Assembly (NCBI GenBank): GCA_004296805.1
Contig: SCVR01000015.1
Span: forward strand, 1-39,325
Length of the DNA: 39,325 bases
Direction: 5' to 3'
DNA from: Dehalococcoidia bacterium
GTDB taxonomy: Bacteria; Chloroflexota; Dehalococcoidia; UBA2979
Part shown: piece by piece, positions 9,086 to 39,325 of the stretch
Layout: each line of letters starts with the position of its first letter
How positions within the stretch are numbered: the stretch's first letter is position 1
Translations under genes and position numbers: made by a program
Notes under the pieces: model-generated
What the model was told of the DNA's origin: nothing
What the model saw: only the letters and a program-made list of their open reading frames with translations
The model's database searches: none

Positions 9086-9454
9086 CATGCTCAGTTCACG
9101 GGCGCTGTTGAGCGTCCAGTCGTGGGACCAGAACTTGCGGAAGTCGTCGTACTTCGCGCCGAACATGGCGCGGACCTTGGTGGTGACTTCTGCCCTGTCG
9201 GCGGCGATGACCTTCGCCGGAGTTCTTGCTTCGACCTTGTTGCCGTAGTAGTCCCAGCGCCGCACGGTGATGTCCCACTCGAACTGCACGGGGGGAGGCG
9301 TCTCGTCGGGGCCGCCTGGGCAGTTCTGCCGGATCGGGTTGTACCACTCGTGGGCGTAGTGGGCGCGGGTCTCGTCGCACCGCTTGAACCCCATCCCGAG
9401 CGGGACCATGCCGCTCGACGGCGTACCCACACTCTCGGACTGAGACTCAGGCAT
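9056..9454 (-). CDS. Hypothetical protein
   Basis: MPESQSESVGTPSSGMVPLGMGFKRCDETRAHYAHEW...PPASEVRDA; both termini lie in the repeat. Confidence 0.65.
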   Translation of the reverse strand: MPESQSESVGTPSSGMVPLGMGFKRCDETRAHYAHEWYNPIRQNCPGGPDETPPPVQFEWDITVRRWDYYGNKVEARTPAKVIAADRAEVTTKVRAMFGAKYDDFRKFWSHDWTLNSARELSMPPASEVRDA

Positions 9455-12621: not shown

Positions 12622-13460
12622 TTCGGCTCCGGGACCGGAATCAGTCCACCCGCAGCGGACTGCACCTTCATGATTCGCAGTGGCTTGCCGGCTCGGCGGT
12701 AGTTCCAGGCGCGATAGATCATGGAGAGGTAGATGCGCTTGGTCAGCACCTCACGGTTGCGGCGGGCCTCGGCCGCCCGGTTGGTCAGCGCCAACACGGG
12801 GTCACCAGGCTTGAGGCCGACCTTCTCTGATGCGGCCACCCAGAACTGCGCCGCCTCGAACATGTCGATCTGCGAGAGCCGCCAGAACGTGTAGGCGACC
12901 ACCGCAGGCGGACAGTCCGTCCGACGTGCGAGGGGCCGAGCGAATTCGCAGGCCGAGCGAAGATCCGGGCGCTCTTCGAGGAGCAGTTCGATCTCGGAGT
13001 TGGTGGCGTTGTACTTGCCGGGGTCGTCGAGACTGGAAGCGACGCCGAGCGCCAGCCGAGCAGTGGCTGCCAGCAGGGTCGCGTTCTTCTCGCCGTTGAG
13101 AGAGAGCGCGTCGGCTGCGGTACGGCGGCGGCCTGTGTCCATGACGCGCTGGACGGCGGGGTCGAGCTCGCGAATGACCAGGAGGGGAAGGGTGACGCCC
13201 GACTTGATGATGGCTGCGAGCCGGTGCTGTCCGTCGAGCAGGGCGCCGTTGTTGCCGAACTTGATGGCTTCGCCGGTGAACTCCCATGCGCCGGACAACA
13301 TGTCCCGGGCGTAGCGATTCACGTCGCTGGGGGTGAGAGGCCGGTTCTTGGTGTTCTGCTTCAGCCACCGCTCGGCCATCTCGGGTGTGACGAAGATGAT
13401 CGATGGTGCGGGCTTGCTGTTGATCGGGACGATGTTGTCGTCCGCGAGGGGCTCAGGCAT
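12618..13460 (-). CDS. ParB/Srx-fold-like protein
   Basis: LLDGQHRLAAIIKSGVTLPLLVIRELDPAVQRVMDTGRRRTAADALSL, the ParB-N-like DGQHR family common in phages. Confidence 0.65.
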   Translation of the reverse strand: MPEPLADDNIVPINSKPAPSIIFVTPEMAERWLKQNTKNRPLTPSDVNRYARDMLSGAWEFTGEAIKFGNNGALLDGQHRLAAIIKSGVTLPLLVIRELDPAVQRVMDTGRRRTAADALSLNGEKNATLLAATARLALGVASSLDDPGKYNATNSEIELLLEERPDLRSACEFARPLARRTDCPPAVVAYTFWRLSQIDMFEAAQFWVAASEKVGLKPGDPVLALTNRAAEARRNREVLTKRIYLSMIYRAWNYRRAGKPLRIMKVQSAAGGLIPVPEPK

Positions 13461-14106
13461 GGGTAGACTCCTCTTGTGAGTTGATCTCTTGCTCGAGGTC
13501 GGTCAGGACCTTGAGTGCGTGGGCGAGGTGGTGGCGCAGATGCGCGGCCACCTCGTTCTTGTTTCGGACGAAGCGGTCGTCGGCGTTCAGTCGCTCGAAC
13601 CGTTCGGTCAGGCGGCGCAGGTCGATGCCGAGATCCCGCGCGACGTCGGGCAGAGCACGCCGCGACGGTGACCGGGGCGTCGTGGTGCGTTCGCGCCCGT
13701 CGAGGCCAGTGGTGACCCGGACGACGGTCGGGGGCTCGACTGAGGAAAGTTCCTCAGTTGCCCGAAGGTCGTTGCCCACCGTCTTCTGGTCGACGCCCAC
13801 GATCGGGGCGATGGCCCGCGTGGACATCCCCTCGTCGGCCAGCCGGACCACCAGTTCCCGGCGGTCGTCCCGGGCCAGGCGCAGCGGCTCGTCTGAGAGA
13901 ACGTCCGACAGGTACGCGGTCCACGACTTGTAGCCGAGAGCAACATGTGCCTGACCGGCCTTGGCCTCGTCGACCAGTGCCAAGACCTTGGCCTTGGCCT
14001 CGGTGTAGTTGGCGGCCGCGATGCGGATGCGCTCGGTGAGGCGGCGCGCGTCGCGCTCCGAAAGAACCTCGACGATCTCGCCGGTCTCGGCGTTGACGAG
14101 GGTCAT
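13453..14106 (-). CDS. HTH protein, ParB-type HTH
   Basis: MSTRAIAPIVGVDQKTVGNDLRATEELS plus C-terminal helical region. Confidence 0.65.
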   Translation of the reverse strand: MTLVNAETGEIVEVLSERDARRLTERIRIAAANYTEAKAKVLALVDEAKAGQAHVALGYKSWTAYLSDVLSDEPLRLARDDRRELVVRLADEGMSTRAIAPIVGVDQKTVGNDLRATEELSSVEPPTVVRVTTGLDGRERTTTPRSPSRRALPDVARDLGIDLRRLTERFERLNADDRFVRNKNEVAAHLRHHLAHALKVLTDLEQEINSQEESTHA

Positions 14107-15076: not shown

Positions 15077-15456
15077 CCCGTCTGGGCTACGCCCACCAGC
15101 CCGAAGGTGGACCCATCGGCCATTGCGCGCTGCACCCCCAGGGCCCAACGATCAGCGGTGAGTGGGGCCTTGCAGATGAGGGAGCGAGACCGAAGGTGGG
15201 AACCGATACAACCGCGAGCGTGCGGATCACGCTCGCAGCCATCCTGTACACCCTGGCCCTGGCGCTCGGCGTTCTAGGCACAATGGAGAACGACATCCGA
15301 CTGCTGTTCTGGTCGCTGATCGTGACCAAGCCAGCCGCGTTGATCACGGTATACATCATGGGTCAGTCCGATCGACTGAACCTCGAGCGGCTGCTCGACC
15401 GCCTGGTCGAGCGGGCGCGGCAACGGAAGCGCGCGGACGTGACGCCCATCCGCTAG
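15073..15456 (+). CDS. Membrane protein, lysogeny-side gene
   Basis: ATGA coupled to 14738 gene; two hydrophobic segments. Confidence 0.6.
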   Translation: MTRLGYAHQPEGGPIGHCALHPQGPTISGEWGLADEGARPKVGTDTTASVRITLAAILYTLALALGVLGTMENDIRLLFWSLIVTKPAALITVYIMGQSDRLNLERLLDRLVERARQRKRADVTPIR

Positions 15457-16652
15457 CCGAGCTGGAGCCGCTCCCCGACCCTCCGCATCGCGTCGAGGAG
15501 CGGCTCCCGCCGGACCGTCATGTACTTCCTCGACGTGATCACCGAGGAGTGCCCCAGGAGCGCGGTGACGACGTGCTCGTCGACCCCGGCCTCGAGGAGC
15601 ATGGTCGCGGCGAAGTTGCGGCACTCGTGGACGTGGTACGGCCTCCCCGTGGGGTGCCCCACTTCGGCGGTGCCCTGGATGGCGTGCCACTCGTCGCGGT
15701 CGTGCTTGTCGTTCGCCGGCCGCCCCGCGGCGGTGGGCCACACCAGGCCCCACGGGTTCGCTGGGGCGACGTCGCGCCACCTCAGCAGTCCGTCACGGAC
15801 CGGCTCGAGCAGCGGCACCACCCGGTAGCCGGCCTTCGACTTCGGCCGGATCAGGTGGAACGAGTCGACGAGGTGACGGGCCTCGAACCCGTCTGGCACA
15901 CGGAACCCGGACGACCGGTCACGGGGGATCTTGTACGGGAGCGGCTGCAGCTGCCACTCGATCACCGCTTCGCCGAAGCCGCCCGCGTCGAAGTCGACCG
16001 CGTCCCAGGTGAGACCGAGGCACTCCCCCATCCGCTGCCCGTACAGCAGCGTGAACAGCCACCGGGAGCCGTGCGGGAGCTCGGCGGCCACCCTCAGGCA
16101 CGCGAGGCCCTGGTCGACGCTCATCGCCTGCCGGTCGGACTTCTCCGACCTCGGGGTCTCCACCAGCAGCACCCGTGGTGGCACCGGGTGCCCCTCACGC
16201 ATCGCCGCACGGAGCATCGTCATCAACGCCCGGTGCGTGTCGGCGGCCTGGCGGCCGGCCGCGCGCTGCGCCTCGGCCACCGCCCGGACGTCGCGGGGGC
16301 TGAGCTGCTCGAGCCGCTTGTGCCCGATCGTGGGGATCACCCAGTTCTTGATCGGGTTCGCCGCCGCGTTGTACCCCTTCGGTGAGAGCTCGCGAACACG
16401 GATCGCGAGGTACTCCTCCGCCCAGGCCTTCACCGTCACCCGGTGCGCGGTCTCCTGGCCGGCCTTGTGCTTGGCGATCCGGTCGCGGAGCTTGCGCTTC
16501 GCCTCGGCCTCGGTCTTCGCGGTGACGTAGAGCCGCCGTCGAGTGCCCTTGTTGGTGAACCCGGCCTCGATGGTGCCGACCCAGCGGCCATCTGAGGCGC
16601 GGCGGTGGATGCCCCCGCTGCCGTACTCGCGGCGACCGCGCTTGCCGGTCAT
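15453..16652 (-). CDS. int: Tyrosine-family site-specific integrase
   Basis: N-terminal SAM-like domain; LLYGQRMGECLGLTWDAVDF; HVHECRNFAATMLLEAGVDEHVVTALLGHSSVITSRKYMTV. Confidence 0.95.
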   Translation of the reverse strand: MTGKRGRREYGSGGIHRRASDGRWVGTIEAGFTNKGTRRRLYVTAKTEAEAKRKLRDRIAKHKAGQETAHRVTVKAWAEEYLAIRVRELSPKGYNAAANPIKNWVIPTIGHKRLEQLSPRDVRAVAEAQRAAGRQAADTHRALMTMLRAAMREGHPVPPRVLLVETPRSEKSDRQAMSVDQGLACLRVAAELPHGSRWLFTLLYGQRMGECLGLTWDAVDFDAGGFGEAVIEWQLQPLPYKIPRDRSSGFRVPDGFEARHLVDSFHLIRPKSKAGYRVVPLLEPVRDGLLRWRDVAPANPWGLVWPTAAGRPANDKHDRDEWHAIQGTAEVGHPTGRPYHVHECRNFAATMLLEAGVDEHVVTALLGHSSVITSRKYMTVRREPLLDAMRRVGERLQLG

Positions 16653-16760
16653 GGCCGTCTCACATCCCGTCGCACATCTCATTGTTGCCTATAGGCCGCT
16701 ATGGGCTGGTTTCCACGCTTGTTTCAGGCGTAATCGGCTACTCTGAGCGTACCAAACGGA

Positions 16761-27070: not shown

Positions 27071-27219
27071 GACGGCTTCACCTTCAGGAGGTGGATCGGG
27101 CCGTCGCAGGTCCGGCAGATCATGAACCCGTTCTTCAGGTAGCGGGGCTGCCTGCAGCCGCGGCAGTAGACGGCGCCGGGGTCGCCGATGGGGTAGGCGC
27201 TGTCGAGCGCCTCGGCCAT
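27067..27219 (-). CDS. 50-aa Zn-ribbon protein
   Basis: MAEALDSAYPIGDPGAVYCRGCRQPRYLKNGFMICRTCDGPIHLLKVKPS; ATGA coupling. Confidence 0.6.
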   Translation of the reverse strand: MAEALDSAYPIGDPGAVYCRGCRQPRYLKNGFMICRTCDGPIHLLKVKPS

Positions 27220-28262
27220 CACACTGCCGCCGTCCGTGAGCGGCGGCCGAACTGCCGGCGCACCTCGGTGCGGAGGCCCGGCAGGTCGGCGCCAGACGCC
27301 GCCCGCTCGGACTCCCCCGAGCCCACGCTGCGACCCCACCCGGCCTGCTCCTGCAGCAGTGTGTTGATGGCCTCCGCGATGCACAGCGTCCGGATGGGGC
27401 CCGGCACCACATGCCGGCTGATCGTCGCCCCTGTGGTGTGCGCGGCAAGCGTGGTGCCCAGCTGAGCCCGGTCGATGTCGATCCCGGTCAACGCGTAGAT
27501 GTCGGCGCCGCTGGTGTGCGCGGCGAGGACCGACCCGTCCCAGGCCCGCTTCACCGTGAGGTTGTTCCCGGCGATGTCGACCACCAGCATCCGCTCGGAC
27601 TCGACGAGCAGGATCTGGCCGACGAGGAACGCCGCGCCGTTGGTGACGGCGACCGTGACCCCGGAGACGGACGCGGCCAGGTCGGCCTGCAGGTTCTGGG
27701 TGGTGTCGACCATGGTCCGGTCGGTGACGATCACCCGTTCGTTGTCGATGGTGAGGATGTCGCCGATGCCGACGTTGCGGGTCCACGACACCGACGCCGT
27801 GTCGGTGGTGTCCGCGTCGAGGTTGGACGACAGCGACCCGACGGTCTCCGAGGTCGCCTGGTAGCCGAACACGCCGGCGATGGCGATGGCCCGCTGGTGG
27901 GTGTCCCCGGAGGAGAACGCCGCCGACGAGGCGAGGTCGATCTCGACGTGGGTGAACGGGGGCCCGGAGTTCGCCGGCTCGAGGAAGTAGTCGGTCGAGG
28001 CGATGGCCTCGCCGGCCACGGTCAGGGTGGTGACCGAGATCAGCTCGTCGGCGTTGAGCCACAGCCGCCACGGCCGCGAGCTGTTCCGGTCGGGCCAGTC
28101 GAAGTAGCGGGTCGCGGTCGTGGGGTAGAAGCGGCGGAGGGTCAGGGACTCGATGGCCCTCGACGCGGTCTCGATGGCCCGGTCGACCTGGGCGTTGCTC
28201 CGAGCGGTCTCGGCGCTGTCGAGGGCGCTCTTGACGTCCTCACGGGTGCAGTAAACAACCAC
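27219..28262 (-). CDS. Head-tail adaptor/connector protein, extended
   Basis: YCTREDVKSALDSAETARSNAQVDRAIETASRAIESLTLRRFYP N-terminus typical of gp6-like adaptors. Confidence 0.65.
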   Translation of the reverse strand: MVVYCTREDVKSALDSAETARSNAQVDRAIETASRAIESLTLRRFYPTTATRYFDWPDRNSSRPWRLWLNADELISVTTLTVAGEAIASTDYFLEPANSGPPFTHVEIDLASSAAFSSGDTHQRAIAIAGVFGYQATSETVGSLSSNLDADTTDTASVSWTRNVGIGDILTIDNERVIVTDRTMVDTTQNLQADLAASVSGVTVAVTNGAAFLVGQILLVESERMLVVDIAGNNLTVKRAWDGSVLAAHTSGADIYALTGIDIDRAQLGTTLAAHTTGATISRHVVPGPIRTLCIAEAINTLLQEQAGWGRSVGSGESERAASGADLPGLRTEVRRQFGRRSRTAAV

Positions 28263-28343
28263 CGCGCCGCCCTTCGCTCTCGCTTTCTGGAGCCAGCCGT
28301 ACCCCGGTGAAGATCGGGTGCGGCAGGTCGCGCTACATCTGCG

Positions 28344-28372
28344 AGTATACGCACAGGTGCACTTATCTGAGC
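28344..28372 (-). promoter_or_regulatory. Predicted late promoter GCTCAG-N17-TATACT
   Basis: Same architecture as 35149-35177; upstream of connector/tail genes. Confidence 0.65.
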
Positions 28373-28382
28373 GCAGGTTGCT

Positions 28383-29879
28383 TCAACGCATGGTGCCGAT
28401 GGCGGCCCGCTCGGTCGGGGCGACAACCTGGCCGGGCGAGGCGGCAGAGAGCTCGCCAGCGGAGCCGGTGGCCGTCCGCTGCGTGGGGTTCACGACCTGG
28501 CCTTCCGCGACCGGGGACAGTTCGCCGATCTGGCCGTTCGCGGGGCCCGCCGCGTCGCCGTCGGCGTCCTCGGCGGCAGCGATGACCAGGGCCAGCGCCG
28601 CGGTGGCCTGCAGGTTCGCGACGACAGCGAGCGCAGCAGCAGTAGCGGTGGCGGTCGCAGGAGCTGCAGCGACACCGCCGGCGGCACCGTTGACGACCGT
28701 CGACGCGGTCGCGCACTCGGCGTTGGCCGACACCGCGCCGCCACCGGCCTCGATGGTCGGGGCCTCCGCGGCCCCCGTGGCGGCAGCTGCGCCCGCGGCG
28801 GGCTGCACGCGGCCCGCAGGCTGCCCAGCTGCCCCCGCCCCGGTCGCCGTCGCGGCGGCCGGCTTCACGGCCGTCGAGGGCGTCTCAGCGGCGCCGGTGA
28901 CGGTGGCGCACTCGGCCGCCGCGTTCGTCATGATCGCCGTGGAGATCGTCGCGTCGAGTGCAGCGGCGGTGGCTGTGGCGGTGGCCGCGGTCGGCGCGAC
29001 TCGTGCCGCAGGCTGCTCGGCGGCGCCGGCGACGCCAGCGTTCCCCCCGGTCGGCTTCACTCCCACCGAGGGCTGCTGAGCTGCGCCGGTGATGGCCACG
29101 GCGCCACCGGTCGGCTTGACCGACGGCCCGGCCTGCTCGGCCGTACCGGTGGCGGCGACCGCGCCTCCCGTCGGCTTCACCGACGGTGCGGGGTCGTTCG
29201 CGGTGCCGGTGGCCGGCGAGTTCTCGGCCGAGGCGTTCGTCGCGGCTGAGGCCGGACGAAGCGCGATGACCGCCGCGTAGCCGCGGACCCCGGCCGAGCG
29301 GACGAAGTCGAAGTCGCCCGACGCCCCCGAGCTCGACCATGCCACGAGGTCCGCGACGCTGGTGTGGGGGCTGTTGGCGATGGAGTCGACCCGCTCGGCC
29401 CATGCGGCGGGGACGGTCGGCGGGGTCATGGTGCCGCTGGCCGAGTTGGAGACCGTGAACCCGACGAAGGTGACACCGGTCACCGAAGTCGTCTGGCCCG
29501 CGACGGTGTACGCCGTGACCGCGCCTATGGATGCCTCGGTCGCGGCGACGTCTATCGGGGTGGTGGTGTCGACGCCCCGGTAGGCGAGCAGGATCGCCCG
29601 GCAGGTGCCGGAGGTGTTGTTGGTGACGGTGAAGTTCCCGGACTCAGAGCCGGTCGCTTCCTTGTGGTAGATCGCGCCGCCGGGGGACTGGCTGGTCCCG
29701 GAGAGGCCGCCGATGACCTTGGTGAACCCGGTCTGGGCGCCAGGCTCCGTGGCAGGCCCGTTGACGACGACCAGGACGAGACGGTCTCCGGCTTGAAGTC
29801 CGGCGGGGTAGGGAGCGGCGGGGTCGGCGCCGGTCAACCCGACTGCGATCCCGCCGTCGGCGACGAACGTGATCGCCAC
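28383..29879 (-). CDS. Virion-associated protein: globular N-domain plus Ala-rich repeats
   Basis: Repeats GGAVAATGTAEQAGPSVKPT / GGAVAITGAAQQPSVGVKPT / GGNAGVAGAAEQPAARVAPT. Confidence 0.65.
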   Translation of the reverse strand: MAITFVADGGIAVGLTGADPAAPYPAGLQAGDRLVLVVVNGPATEPGAQTGFTKVIGGLSGTSQSPGGAIYHKEATGSESGNFTVTNNTSGTCRAILLAYRGVDTTTPIDVAATEASIGAVTAYTVAGQTTSVTGVTFVGFTVSNSASGTMTPPTVPAAWAERVDSIANSPHTSVADLVAWSSSGASGDFDFVRSAGVRGYAAVIALRPASAATNASAENSPATGTANDPAPSVKPTGGAVAATGTAEQAGPSVKPTGGAVAITGAAQQPSVGVKPTGGNAGVAGAAEQPAARVAPTAATATATAAALDATISTAIMTNAAAECATVTGAAETPSTAVKPAAATATGAGAAGQPAGRVQPAAGAAAATGAAEAPTIEAGGGAVSANAECATASTVVNGAAGGVAAAPATATATAAALAVVANLQATAALALVIAAAEDADGDAAGPANGQIGELSPVAEGQVVNPTQRTATGSAGELSAASPGQVVAPTERAAIGTMR

Positions 29880-32907: not shown

Positions 32908-34229
32908 TCAGTCGGCGCCGAGCTCGACGAACGGGGACAGGGTCGCGCCGCCGTTGGCCGGGGTGATGGCCGAGTTCAGCCACGGCCGGCCGTCGACGCG
33001 CTCGATGATCCGAACGGCCGTCTGGTCGTTCTTGAACTTGTAGTGCGGCGAGGTCTCGATCTGCATGACCTGCCGGTCGCCGACCAGGTAGTAGCCGAAG
33101 TCGACGAACGACAGCTGGCCGGCGCTGCCCTTGGCGGGCATCTTCTCGGTGAAGATGACCGGCCGGCCGAGCAGCGTCATGGGGGGACCCTCGGCGAGGC
33201 CGTTGTTCAGCCACACCGCCGGCGAACCGGTGGACACCTCGAGGCGGGCCAGGTCGACGAACGTGTCGATCGACGCGATCCACACCGCGCGGCCCAGGGA
33301 GGCCGGCAGCATCCGCGAGTACATGCTCGCGACGTCGGCGAACTCGATGTCGTTCCCGGACGCGGTCGCGGTGACCGTGATCTTCGCGGCGGCGTTGCGG
33401 ACACCGAGGGGCTCGCCGACACCGGAGCCGGTGAGGAACGCGACGTCCTCGAAGAAGCTGATGGCCTCGGGCCACAGCTCCTCGATCAGCGCGGAGAACG
33501 ACCCGATCGCGTCCTGGAACAGCTCGTTCGGGACCTCGCTGTACCCGGTGAGCTTCTTCGCGTCGAGGACCACCCGGCCGAACTTCGCGGACGAGTCGGT
33601 CAGCGCGCCGGCCTCCTCGGTCCAGTAGCCGACCATGCCGCCGTACACGCTGGAGGCGTGCGAGGTGTCGTCGATCGTGGGGATCGGGACACGCAGCGAG
33701 TCCATGGGGATGACCCGCGCGCGGGAGCGGACGATGGACGACTCGAGCGCCACCGCGAGCAGCTCGGAACGGAGGGTCTCGGGGATGAGGAACCCGCCGT
33801 CGCTGGGGACGGTGGAGCCGAAGGCGTTGCGGACGGCGTGGATCTTGTCCTGCAGCTCGCCGGCGCCGGCGCCCTGCGACTTGTGCCAGATCGCCTGGAG
33901 GAACTCGCCGTGGTTCTTCACCAGCTTGTCGACGCCGGCGCCGGGGGCGTTGGCGTTGTAGATCTTCGACCGCTTCGCGGCGAGGCTGCCGACCGCGGAG
34001 TCGGGCGTCAGGTTGAGACGCTGGGTCGAGCCGTGGTCCTTCAGCCACTGGGCCAGGACCCGCTGGGTCTCTTCCTTGACCTGGGTGGCGACGTCGTTGT
34101 GGGCGTCGGCCTTGGCGTCGGCGTAGTCCTTGAGGAACTGGCCGAGCTTGCCGTTGTTGACCAGCTCGACGATCTTCGACTGGTCCTTCAGGGTCGCCTC
34201 GAGCTCGTCGAGCGACATGGTGGCAGTGG

Positions 34230-34233
<4 letters not shown>
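32908..34233 (-). CDS. HK97-fold major capsid protein with N-terminal delta-domain
   Basis: GSTVPSDGGFLIPETLRSELLAVALESSIVRSRARVIPMDS...YSEVPNELFQDAIGSFSALIEELWPEAISFFEDVAFLTGSGVGEPLGV. Confidence 0.93.
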
Positions 34234-35117
<884 letters not shown>

Positions 35118-35145: not shown

Positions 35146-35187
35146 CGGAGTATACGCATACCTATGCGCACTTGAGCGTAAACTCCG
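35146..35187. promoter_or_regulatory. Near-symmetrical divergent promoter element between head and packaging operons
   Basis: CGGAGTATACGC-N18-GCGTAAACTCCG (11/12 arm match); minus GCTCAA-N17-TATACT, plus -10-like TAAACT at 35179-35184. Confidence 0.65.
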
Positions 35188-35223
35188 AAGAGAGCGAGTG
35201 TCCCGGTCAGGAGGTGTCAGGTC

Positions 35224-35655
35224 GTGCCGGCACGTCGAACACCTTCGGTCCTGACCGCCCTCCAGTCCGCGCTGAGAGCGCAGCCGGCCGGCGCCCAGGA
35301 CGCCGCCACCGTCGCGCTGGCCAAGCGGTACGCCCTCGAGCTCGACGACGCCGACGTGATCTCGACCGCCGCAACCAAGGCCCTCCGCCAGCTGGCGAAG
35401 GCCGACGTCGAGGACGACCTGTTCGAGAAGTTCGAGGCCCTCGCCGCTCGAATCGAACAGGTCCACGTGGCCGCGACGATCGGCCCCAAGCTCCTGGCCG
35501 CCCTCGAGCAGCTCGGCCTGACCCCGAAGGCCCGCAACGCCATCCTCGCCACGCCGGGGGGAGGTGGCGGCAATGACGGTGGTCCCTCTCCCCTTGGACA
35601 CCTCCGAGCACTTGGGTCGAACCGAGCCCCGGCTGTGGACTCCTCCGCTTCGTGA
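35224..35655 (+). CDS. terS: Terminase small subunit-like
   Basis: 143-aa protein directly upstream of TerL, GTG start with GGAGG SD. Confidence 0.7.
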   Translation: MPARRTPSVLTALQSALRAQPAGAQDAATVALAKRYALELDDADVISTAATKALRQLAKADVEDDLFEKFEALAARIEQVHVAATIGPKLLAALEQLGLTPKARNAILATPGGGGGNDGGPSPLGHLRALGSNRAPAVDSSAS

Positions 35656-37279
35656 GCTGACACCGGACACGTGCCCGTCGTGCGGGTGGTCCACGATGAA
35701 CGACGACGGGGAGTTTCCCGAGTACGGCGACGACGACCAACTCCTCTGCCCCGAGGACGGGGAGCCGCTGACCCCGGCGACGTCGTACGGGTTCGCGGTG
35801 ATCCTGTTCGCCCGGCACGTCCTGAAGCACCCCCTCGACCCGTGGGAGGAGTGGGTCGCGATCCACCTCGGCGAGCTCCTCCCCGACGGCCGGCCCCGCT
35901 TTCGGAAGTACCTGATCCTCGTCGCCCGGCAGAACGGGAAGACCGAGCTCCTGGTGGTGCTGACCCTCTACTGGATGTTCGTCACCCGGGTCGGGGTGGT
36001 GCTCGGCACCTCCACGAAGCTCGACTACGCCGCGGAGTCCTGGCGGAAAGCGTGCAAGCTCGCCCGCCGGATCCCCGAGCTGAACGCCGAGATCCCCAAG
36101 CGTGGCGGGATCCGCAAGGCCAACGGCGAGCAGGTCCTTTGGCGCGCGGACCCCCTCGAGGCCGAGCTCGAGGAGGGGTCGCGGTACAAGATCGCGGCGT
36201 CGAACGAGGAGGGCGGCCGGTCCCTGACGATCGACCGGCTGGTCCTCGACGAGCTGCGGCAGCATCACGACTACTCGGCGTGGGATGCGTCCTATGACGC
36301 GATGTCGGCGGTGCCCGACGCCCAGGCGATCATGATCACGAACGCCGGGTCGGACAAGTCCGTCGTCCTCAACGACACCCGCGACGAGGCCCTCCGGTTC
36401 ATCGACACCGGGGTCGGTGACGAACGGCTCGGCCTGGCCGAATACTCCTCACCGGACGGCGCCTCACCGGTCGACATCGACGCCCTCCTGCAGGCCAACC
36501 CGAACGCCGGCCGCCGGATCCTCGTCGAGGACCTCCTCAACGAGGGCGCCGCCGCGATGCGGATCGGCGGGAAGAAGCTCGCCGGGTTCCGCACCGAGCG
36601 GATGTGCCAGCGGGTCCCCGCCATGGACAACGCGCTAGACCTCGACGCCTGGGAGCGGGAGTTCGACCCGGCCCAGCTCATCCCCCTCGGCGTCCGACAC
36701 CCCTCGATCCGGCCCGGCTGCCTCGACCCCGGCGACCTGTCCGCGGTGCGGTCCCGCGTCACGCTGTGCGTCGAGGTCTCCGAGGACGGCCTCCACGCCA
36801 CGCTGTACGCCGCCGCGCTCCTCGACGACGGCCGCGTCCGCATCGACCCAGTGACGGCCTGGGCGGGCCCCGGCTGCACCAAGGACCTGCAGGCCGACCT
36901 CCCCAGCTGGGTCGCGAAGGTGAAGCCGAGGAAGGTCGGGTGGCTGCCGTCCGGGCCGGCCGCCGCGGTCGCCGCGAGCATCGCGAAGAAGCGCGACAAC
37001 TGGCCACCCCGCGGCGTCGCCCTCGAGGAGATCACCCGCGACACCCCGGCCGTGTGCATGGGGTTCGCCGAGCAGGTCACCACCGGCCAGGTCGCCCACT
37101 CCGGCGACTCCCTCCTCGACGCCCAGGTCGCCACCGCCGAGAAGCAGTTCACCGGGAAGCGGTGGGTCTTCGCCCTCGGCGACGACCACGTCGACGCGGT
37201 CTATGCCGCGGCCGGCGCTGTGCACCTGGCCCGCACTCTCCCGCCCGCCACCCAACCCAGATTGAGGATGATCACGTGA
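35573..37279 (+). CDS. terL: Terminase large subunit
   Basis: ARQNGKTELLVVLTLYW (Walker A-like), LTIDRLVLDELRQH (Walker B-like), N-terminal Cys motif. Confidence 0.93.
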   Translation: MTVVPLPLDTSEHLGRTEPRLWTPPLRELTPDTCPSCGWSTMNDDGEFPEYGDDDQLLCPEDGEPLTPATSYGFAVILFARHVLKHPLDPWEEWVAIHLGELLPDGRPRFRKYLILVARQNGKTELLVVLTLYWMFVTRVGVVLGTSTKLDYAAESWRKACKLARRIPELNAEIPKRGGIRKANGEQVLWRADPLEAELEEGSRYKIAASNEEGGRSLTIDRLVLDELRQHHDYSAWDASYDAMSAVPDAQAIMITNAGSDKSVVLNDTRDEALRFIDTGVGDERLGLAEYSSPDGASPVDIDALLQANPNAGRRILVEDLLNEGAAAMRIGGKKLAGFRTERMCQRVPAMDNALDLDAWEREFDPAQLIPLGVRHPSIRPGCLDPGDLSAVRSRVTLCVEVSEDGLHATLYAAALLDDGRVRIDPVTAWAGPGCTKDLQADLPSWVAKVKPRKVGWLPSGPAAAVAASIAKKRDNWPPRGVALEEITRDTPAVCMGFAEQVTTGQVAHSGDSLLDAQVATAEKQFTGKRWVFALGDDHVDAVYAAAGAVHLARTLPPATQPRLRMIT

Positions 37280-37440
37280 TCCGTCGTCTCGCCCCCCACA
37301 TGCCGCTGATCCTCGGCATCCTCGGCCTGGCGTTCCTCGTGGCGTCGGTGTGGACGATCGCCCGCTCCGACCTGGGCACCACCCTTGGCCTGGCCGCTAC
37401 CGGTCTCGGCCTCCTCGTCCTCGAATGGAGGGTCACCTGA
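37276..37440 (+). CDS. Small membrane protein between terL and portal
   Basis: VIRRLAPHMPLILGILGLAFLVASVWTIARSDLGTTLGLAATGLGLLVLEWRVT; GTGA and TGATG couplings. Confidence 0.6.
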   Translation: MIRRLAPHMPLILGILGLAFLVASVWTIARSDLGTTLGLAATGLGLLVLEWRVT

Positions 37441-38675
37441 TGGCCAAGTCGATCATCGGAGGCGTCGTCGGCGGCGTCACCCAGAAGGCCCCGTCGGCGT
37501 ACGGCCGCGCGCGGGGGCGCGTGAACCTGCCGTGGGGCGCCGGTCCCAACACCGCCGAGGCGCAGCTGTCCGCGATGGGGTCGGTCGGCACACTCTTCGC
37601 GATCGTGCACCGCACCAGCAACGCCACCAGTCAGGTCGACTGGAAGCTCTGGCGGAAGTCACCGGACCAGCGCCGCAAGTTCGGGCCGGTCGACGACCGC
37701 CGGATCGAGGTCACCAAGCACGCGGCCCTCGACCTGTGGAACAACCCCAACCCGTTCATGACCCGGCAGCACCTGGTCGAGACGGTGCAGCAGCACATCG
37801 ACCTCGTCGGCGAGGGCCCCATCGTGATCTACCGCGACCCGCGGTCGCCGCTGCCGCTGGAGCTGTGGCCGGTCCGGCCGGACCGGATCACCCCGATCCC
37901 CGGCGACGACTTCCTCGCCGGCTACATCTACACCGGCGCCAACGGCGAGCAGGTCCCCCTCAGCGTCGACGACGTCATCCACCTCAAGATGCCGAACCCC
38001 CTCGACCCGTACCGCGGCCTCGGCCCGGTGCAGGCCGCGATGGTCGACCTCGACTCGGCGCGGTTCTCCGCGGAGTGGAACCGCAACTTCTTCATCAACT
38101 CGGCCGAGCCGGGCGGGATCATCGAGGTCCCCGACCGGCTCGACGACGACGCGTTCCGCGAGCTCACCGAACGGTGGCGCGAGCAGCACCAGGGCGTGGC
38201 CCAGGCCCACCGGGTGGCCGTCCTCGAGCAGGGCACCTGGAAGGACCGGTCCATGTCCCAGCGCGACATGCAGTTCGTCCAGCTCCGCGGCCTCGCGCGC
38301 GAGGTCATCCGCGAGGCGTTCGGCATCCACGGCCACATGCTCGGCAACAGCCAGGACGTGAACAAGGCCAACGCCGAGGCCGGCGAGATCTCGTTCGCCC
38401 GCTGGCTGGTCAAGCCCCGCTGCGAGCGCATCAAGCAGGCCCTGAACCACCGGCTCCTGCCGATGTTCGACGCCACCGACCTCGAGTTCGACCACGACCG
38501 GGTCGTCCCCGAGGACCGCGAGGCCGACGACCGCGAGCGGACCTCGCTCGCCGATGCCGCGAAGACCTGGGTCGAGGCCGGGTTCGACCCGGCCGCCGTC
38601 CTCGCGTACCTCGGGATGCCCGATCTGCCGTACGTCGGCCCCCCACAGAAGGCGAGCACAGGAGCCCCCGAGTGA
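37440..38675 (+). CDS. Portal protein (HK97 type)
   Basis: DVIHLKMPNPLDPYRGLGPVQAAMVDLDSARFSAEWNRNFFINSAEPGGIIEVP. Confidence 0.93.
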   Translation: MAKSIIGGVVGGVTQKAPSAYGRARGRVNLPWGAGPNTAEAQLSAMGSVGTLFAIVHRTSNATSQVDWKLWRKSPDQRRKFGPVDDRRIEVTKHAALDLWNNPNPFMTRQHLVETVQQHIDLVGEGPIVIYRDPRSPLPLELWPVRPDRITPIPGDDFLAGYIYTGANGEQVPLSVDDVIHLKMPNPLDPYRGLGPVQAAMVDLDSARFSAEWNRNFFINSAEPGGIIEVPDRLDDDAFRELTERWREQHQGVAQAHRVAVLEQGTWKDRSMSQRDMQFVQLRGLAREVIREAFGIHGHMLGNSQDVNKANAEAGEISFARWLVKPRCERIKQALNHRLLPMFDATDLEFDHDRVVPEDREADDRERTSLADAAKTWVEAGFDPAAVLAYLGMPDLPYVGPPQKASTGAPE

Positions 38676-39085
38676 ACCACACCCAGACCATCGTCACGCT
38701 GATCCTCAGCCTGGCCGCGCTCGGCGGCATCGTCCTCGGCTGGGTCCGCTGGGCCCGGCCCCGCATCCACCGGGCCCAGGCCGAGGCCGTCGCGATCCGC
38801 GACTCCATCATCGGCCGCGACGCGATCCGCGACTCCATCACCGGCCGCGAGATCGCGCCGGCCCTGCCCGGGGTCGGCGTCCGGCTCGAGGCCCAGGAGC
38901 ACCACCTCGGGAAGCTGGCCGAGGCCGTCGCGTCCCTGGCTGAGTCTCACGACCGGCTAGAGGACCACGAGCACCGGATCACGAAGCTCGAGCGGGCCTC
39001 GATCGAGGTCATCGTCTCCCGCGGCGAGGCAGCGTCGGCCTGGCGCGCGCTGCAGGACGAGGGCGACCAGGCCGACCAGGCCTGA
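38672..39085 (+). CDS. TM plus coiled-coil protein with duplicated 10-aa repeat
   Basis: VNHTQTIVTLILSLAALGGIVLGWVRW; AIRDSIIGRD/AIRDSITGRE. Confidence 0.65.
   Translation: MNHTQTIVTLILSLAALGGIVLGWVRWARPRIHRAQAEAVAIRDSIIGRDAIRDSITGREIAPALPGVGVRLEAQEHHLGKLAEAVASLAESHDRLEDHEHRITKLERASIEVIVSRGEAASAWRALQDEGDQADQA
38791..38850 (+). repeat. Two 30-bp tandem repeats
   Basis: GCGATCCGCGACTCCATCATCGGCCGCGAC / GCGATCCGCGACTCCATCACCGGCCGCGAG. Confidence 0.9.
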
Positions 39086-39088
39086 CCC

Positions 39089-39268
39089 TCACCCCTGGCA
39101 GCGTTGCGGCCGGGGGTCGCCCGTGCCGGGGTAGGTCACCAGCTCGGGGCACGGCTCGCGGTGCGGGTTCCCGTTGAGCTTGGTCGCGTGGTGCGACGCG
39201 CACCCGGGCGGGCAGTGGACACAGCACGGCCAGGACAGCACCGCCTCGGTGATCATGGGCTCGGCCAT
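39089..39268 (-). CDS. 59-aa Cys/His-rich protein
   Basis: MAEPMITEAVLSWPCCVHCPPGCASHHATKLNGNPHREPCPELVTYPGTGDPRPQRCQG; GAGGAGG SD; not in supplied ORF track. Confidence 0.65.
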   Translation of the reverse strand: MAEPMITEAVLSWPCCVHCPPGCASHHATKLNGNPHREPCPELVTYPGTGDPRPQRCQG

Positions 39269-39325
39269 GGGGGCTCCTCCTCGATTTCATTGCGCCGCGC
39301 TCTCGGGGAGAGAGAGACGCCTGAC

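Follow-up and report, generated by a model that had tools for sequence, protein, structure and literature searches.

Two promoter-like sites and a candidate structured leader RNA before virion genes of a temperate siphophage in a Dehalococcoidia assembly

The window analysed here is a stretch of 39,325 nt (contig SCVR01000015.1 of the assembly GCA_004296805.1, assigned to a Dehalococcoidia bacterium). Its gene content, which comprises integrase, tape measure, tail, capsid, protease, portal and terminase genes, identifies it as a temperate siphophage (Table 1). The terminase and portal genes are encoded on the plus strand and those of the protease, capsid, adaptor and tail on the minus strand, i.e., the terminase/portal part (window positions 35172-39325) is inverted relative to the protease and capsid. 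This layout is common to seven relatives (L008, L010, L013, L014, L015, L028 and L057), and a second scan for further phages of divergent layout yielded no new one. In genomes of host relatives the phage was not found: their protease matches reached ~30% identity over the ClpP core only and look like the hosts' own ClpP. A check of the assembly for 16S, to identify the host, gave none.

Table 1. Genes and sequence elements of the window considered in this work, with strand in brackets where given
Feature	Position	Evidence or remark
Integrase	15453-16682	Marks temperate phage
Head-tail adaptor, GTG start at 28262	27219..28262 (-)	phrog_442, E 1e-8; relatives 45-65% identical
Putative P1 3' strand (AGG 28273-28271, GCGC 28267-28264) with SD AAGGG 28274-28270	28264..28274 (-)	Sequence reading; duplex
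P3 hairpin, GCUC-c-AGAAAGCGA-GAGC	28276..28293 (-)	Conserved loop AGAAAGCRA
Putative P2 hairpin, GCCG-c-ACCC ... GGGU-a-CGGC	28296..28324 (-)	Read from sequence
Putative P1 5' strand, GCGC 28333-28330 and CCU 28327-28325	28325..28333 (-)	Duplex with SD region, -12.1 kcal/mol
Promoter-like site 2: GCTCAG 28372-28367, N17, TATACT 28349-28344	28344..28372 (-)	Exact match; upstream of head-tail adaptor
498-aa ORF without family match	28383..29879 (-)	Ends immediately 5' of promoter 2
Major capsid protein ORF (HK97-like)	32908..34704 (-)	Pfam Phage_capsid, E 1.1e-48
Head maturation (ClpP-like) protease	34230..35117 (-)	phrog_2976, E 4.9e-79; Pfam CLP_protease, E 3.4e-28; first gene of inverted head operon
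Promoter-like site 1: GCTCAA 35177-35172, N17, TATACT 35154-35149	35149..35177 (-)	Exact match; upstream of head maturation protease
Terminase large subunit	35564..37279 (+)	phrog_9, E 2.5e-55; divergent from head operon
Portal protein	37350..38675 (+)	Pfam Phage_portal, E 8.7e-65; divergent from head operon

An initial annotation of the window had described two minus-strand copies of a late-promoter motif, GCTCAR-N17-TATACT, and a pattern scan recovered both exactly where they had been placed, with 0 mismatches. They were also said to be the only copies in the window, which is borne out even when up to two mismatches are allowed (shuffle expectation 0.41; two or more matches in 5 of 100 shuffles), and the exact motif occurs nowhere else in the whole 2.6-Mb assembly. 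TATACT taken alone is found twice in this 39-kb, 70% GC window, both times within the motif, as against 0.43 occurrences expected, and two are reached in 6 of 100 shuffles. Since the motif was picked post hoc, a fairer test is the direct comparison of the two intergenic regions: their best ungapped 31-base match has 21 identities, a value attained by 3 of 2000 dinucleotide shuffles, and their likeness is significant but modest. Furthermore, both sites have GTAGC slightly downstream of the -10.

Both copies are intergenic and oriented into the virion genes that lie 3' of them on the minus strand, one preceding the head protease and capsid and the other the head-tail adaptor, which supports the late-promoter identity originally proposed. 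As in sigma-70/sigma-A promoters of phage late operons, the hexamer TATACT conforms to the TANNNT -10, the spacing is 17 bp and virion genes follow; they differ from these in that the consensus scan found no TTGACA-like -35 at 16-18 bp at either site, GCTCAR standing at 17 bp instead, and in that two bases separate TG from the hexamer in TGCG-TATACT, one too many for a TGn extended -10. For the adaptor site, transcription starting at about 28337 would be reasonably spaced from the -10.

The promoter before the protease is not confined to the window, a point that also favours its late-promoter identity. In all seven relatives of divergent layout the protease operon has a TAWNNT -10, 22-34 bp ahead of its start, in the form of TATCCT (L010, L013), TATCGT (L014), TATTCT (L015), TATCTT (L028, L057) or TAACTT (L008); that of L008 stands far away from where the protease is conserved, before a different possible start, and that of L015 precedes an in-frame start further upstream. 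In a wider search of 79 protease loci TAWNNT was present in four, three of them on contigs of divergent layout and one on another. The protease promoter thus appears to accompany the terminase/portal inversion, and the head operon would need a start of its own because terminase and portal are inverted. In L010 (3880-3951) and L013 (770-823), the protease promoters overlap a Fur/Zur-like palindrome (GATAACGATTATCGTT and GAATGATTATCGTT, respectively), an arrangement that might put the head operon under a metal regulator of the host.

The upstream hexamer is less constant. At the same 17-bp spacing, four of the seven relatives carry TCACAC (L014), TCACGC (L015), TCTCAC (L028) and TCGCAC (L057), in which C2, C4 and, for the most part, A5 agree with GCTCAR; nevertheless, L014, L028 and L057 are similar across the whole region, so that their -35 likeness is weak evidence. 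L010, L013 and L008 keep the -10 with a -35 unlike GCTCAR, and the TTGACA present in L008 stands at a non-standard distance. GCTCAR therefore seems at best partly conserved before the protease, up to half of the motif at most, and the exact GCTCAR-N17-TATACT is absent from the relatives. Before the adaptor, the motif is absent from all upstream regions examined, and promoter 2 is known from the window alone. Conservation upstream of the orthologous genes, on which the initial annotation had made its proposal depend, hence holds for the -10 of the protease, in part for its -35, and not for the adaptor.

Both sites are probably host-type (sigma-A) late promoters. The departure of the -35 from the host consensus had been taken to hint at a phage-specific sigma factor or activator, but that departure lacks a measured basis: TTGACA-N17-TANNNT is not enriched in the host genome (37 matches versus 53 in the reversed control), and the difference between GCTCAR and TTGACA is for this reason uninformative. 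A phage-specific role of GCTCAR, either in binding a phage activator or as the -35 that a phage sigma factor recognises, would agree with the equal spacing of this hexamer in both window copies, with C-N-C-A/G at 17 bp before the protease in four relatives, with the lack of resemblance between GCTCAR and TTGACA and with an unassigned HTH_23-type gene at 13453-14106. We consider such a role improbable, because PHROGs and Pfam matched no sigma gene in the part of the window ORFs that was scanned (many genes being unassigned), because the three relatives mentioned above retain the -10 alone, and because the third TGCGTATACT of the assembly, on another contig and ~35 bp before an alpha/beta-hydrolase-like gene, has no GCTCA upstream. 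When viral contigs were scanned with GCTCAR-N13-TGCGTATACT, four matched, and none of these belongs to the relatives by adaptor or capsid. In turn, the adaptor site might be a chance or inherited duplicate that is inactive, the protease site alone being at work and its promoter also serving the adaptor. This is in keeping with the frequency of TATACT pairs in shuffles (6%) and with the lack of a promoter-like sequence at that place in any relative, yet the likeness to the protease promoter region, rare among shuffles, and the exact intergenic position of the site, 5' of the leader hairpins described below, make us give it little credit.

Between promoter 2 and the adaptor start lies a stretch (28333-28264) that we regard as a degenerate copy of a leader element found in the relatives, phages of soil actinobacteria. 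In many of these, the order before the adaptor is a block [AC][CT]AACT[GT][AC]ATA (hereafter ACAACTKMATA), a linker of ~5-14 nt, hairpins ending with the loop AGAAAGCRA, the Shine-Dalgarno (SD) sequence and the start codon. The loop has a single copy in the window (28288-28280), at the position matching that of the relatives and on its own 4-bp stem GCUC/GAGC. ACAACTKMATA is not recognisable in the window leader region, where the upstream stop codon is followed by CAACCTGC and then by a longer stretch containing TATACT. With a covariance model from which the window was left out, its copy scores 6.9 bits (E 1.1), and the unconstrained minimum-energy fold of this leader differs from the proposed one; homology to the element of the relatives is likely from position, the copy alone being no proof.

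The pairing is best seen in the relatives. In P3, 94.3% of cells are paired over 44 distinct hairpins, versus 47.7% after shuffling, with double changes in 36 of 88 cells, and slid controls collapse. The 5' strand of P1 pairs better with the SD/start region of its own gene than with those of others (-9.3 versus -7.9 +/- 0.3 kcal/mol; 0 of 1000 permutations), as illustrated by GCCAU/AUGGC in L159, GCUCA/UGAGC in L256 and ACCC/GGGU in L018; the inner CC/GG is nearly invariant and the outer pairs alone carry the covariation. These permutation tests leave relatedness in place. P2 forms at least 5 bp in 88% of relatives and in 41% of shuffles, and is missing in one subclass. P3 and P1 of the relatives are covarying helices, as a leader that masks a ribosome-binding site would have, and the predicted fold pairs both the SD and the start codon, the SD AGG being about two-thirds paired by computation, mainly to the 5' side. 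The overall folding energy is ordinary (mean z -0.3), and RNAalifold on a MAFFT alignment returned no structure, probably owing to the length variation of P2.

A search of Rfam 15 with the window and 10 relatives gave no match above the gathering threshold and irrelevant sub-threshold matches only, and the leader can be put forward as a previously uncatalogued structured RNA and a new candidate family. The upstream stop codon lies at too variable a distance for translational coupling, which was therefore ruled out. Mimicry of rRNA was also rejected: ACAACTKMATA is similar to GAGAACTSMACAG of actinobacterial rrn, as is the hairpin to the 5' end of 23S, but the rRNA has CAG rather than ATA, another spacing and no AAAGC loop, and the hairpin arms covary.

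A strict pattern is matched by 45 viral contigs, one of which at least, L260, seems to match by chance, and the covariance model places the element before adaptors in ~30 of 93 sources. It is also present in the genome of Phytohabitans maris (L227), in Actinomadura sp. KC345 (L229) and in an actinobacterial MAG (L234); across 297 genomes from the class to which Phytohabitans belongs, the RNA model found Phytohabitans itself only (E 1e-4). Among cultured phages, this adaptor family was found only in the Streptomyces phage Dagobah (MT711977; PMC7650747), where a weak element (9159-9236, E 0.07) lies directly before the adaptor gene, as in the window; unlike the window, Dagobah has a variant loop, CGAAAGCAA and ACAACTTCAGA, and its terminase and portal genes are collinear with the head genes. 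Its P2 hairpin GGGGGTTCGATTCCCCC (L224:7947-7965) resembles a tRNA T-arm.

The element stands mostly 5' of the adaptor and sometimes 5' of an HNH or other small gene that precedes it. HNH-type endonuclease genes follow the leader immediately and separate it from the adaptor gene at L016:4853-5254, from L057:4137 onward and from L073:1239 onward, identified by family match in L016 and by the look of the sequence in the other two. In L108, L129, L168, L182, L253 and L261 the element is 5' of a ~180-aa Lys/His-rich protein with KHAG-like repeats, which gave no PHROG match where tested, and at L246:4603 and L265:10022 it is 5' of an unrelated gene starting MAVTSHVYPK or MAVTSHMYPK.

Leader structures that cover a ribosome-binding site are familiar from phage translational operators, such as the coat protein hairpin of RNA phages and those of T4 gp32, gp43 and RegA, from which the present element differs in layout and sequences and as a candidate without known binding protein. 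Post-transcriptional control in T4 has been reviewed (PMC3014915). Among actinobacteriophages, the Start-Associated Sequences (SAS, GGGATAGGAGCCC; 11-19 per genome, at non-structural genes only) and ESAS of cluster K mycobacteriophages likewise combine a conserved sequence with an inverted repeat close before start codons, and a role in translation initiation is suspected for them (PMC3203893). The leader element does not belong to them: its sequence is another one, it is essentially single-copy, it precedes a head-tail gene and its hairpin covaries.

In the relatives, ACAACTKMATA might itself be a single-block late promoter, comparable to TATAAATA of T4, the window having swapped promoters before the hairpins. 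Over 61 non-redundant copies the 11-nt block is sharp and has no neighbouring information up to 50 nt upstream, hence no -35; it stands 5-14 nt before the folded part, and the window has TATACT in the matching interval from upstream gene to leader. Against these points, ACAACTKMATA occurs about once per contig and almost solely together with the hairpin, which accompanies it in 30 of 36 cases and, with a variant loop, in L074 as well, and the phages that carry it do not use it in their protease promoters, so that we hold such a swap to be unlikely, if worth keeping in view. The lambda nut site likewise has, in boxA and boxB, a short single-stranded block of conserved sequence and, after it, a hairpin whose loop is conserved and rich in purines, and this shared architecture would suit a leader acting in antitermination or RNA processing rather than as a translational switch. 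Such a role seems to us very unlikely, given that the 5' strand of P1 changes along with the start region of the gene that follows it and pairs with its SD and start codon, which antitermination does not need, that no boxA core or boxB sequence is seen, and that the resemblance to rrn leaders fails.

Taken jointly, two late promoters read by the host and an adaptor leader that belongs as a degenerate copy to a family of structured RNAs make up the explanation that we think probable. The host primary RNA polymerase would read both sites through the TGCG-TATACT -10 region and a weak, non-TTGACA -35, and we infer that both are transcribed. The adaptor promoter, as the second copy, would occupy the place taken by ACAACTKMATA in the relatives and start a leader of ~75 nt. 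This would adopt a multi-branch fold, in which the basal stem P1 lies over the SD/start region and P3 presents the AGAAAGCRA loop, and the opening and closing of P1 would control the translation of the adaptor, a regulatory role that we infer from the structure. Whether the adaptor leader represents a hitherto undescribed family of cis-regulatory RNAs among actinobacterial phages, with a receptor formed by ACAACTKMATA and AGAAAGCRA that sets the masking by P1 and thereby times head-tail joining, is in our judgement evenly balanced.

The promoters themselves are ordinary. The leader, absent from Rfam, recurs at the equivalent place in phages of 43% to >70% GC and covaries with the start region that it covers. 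Should the leader act as a switch, head-tail joining would have a post-transcriptional checkpoint in a large and almost uncultivated group of actinobacteriophages, and the cultured relative Dagobah, which grows on S. coelicolor, makes the leader testable.
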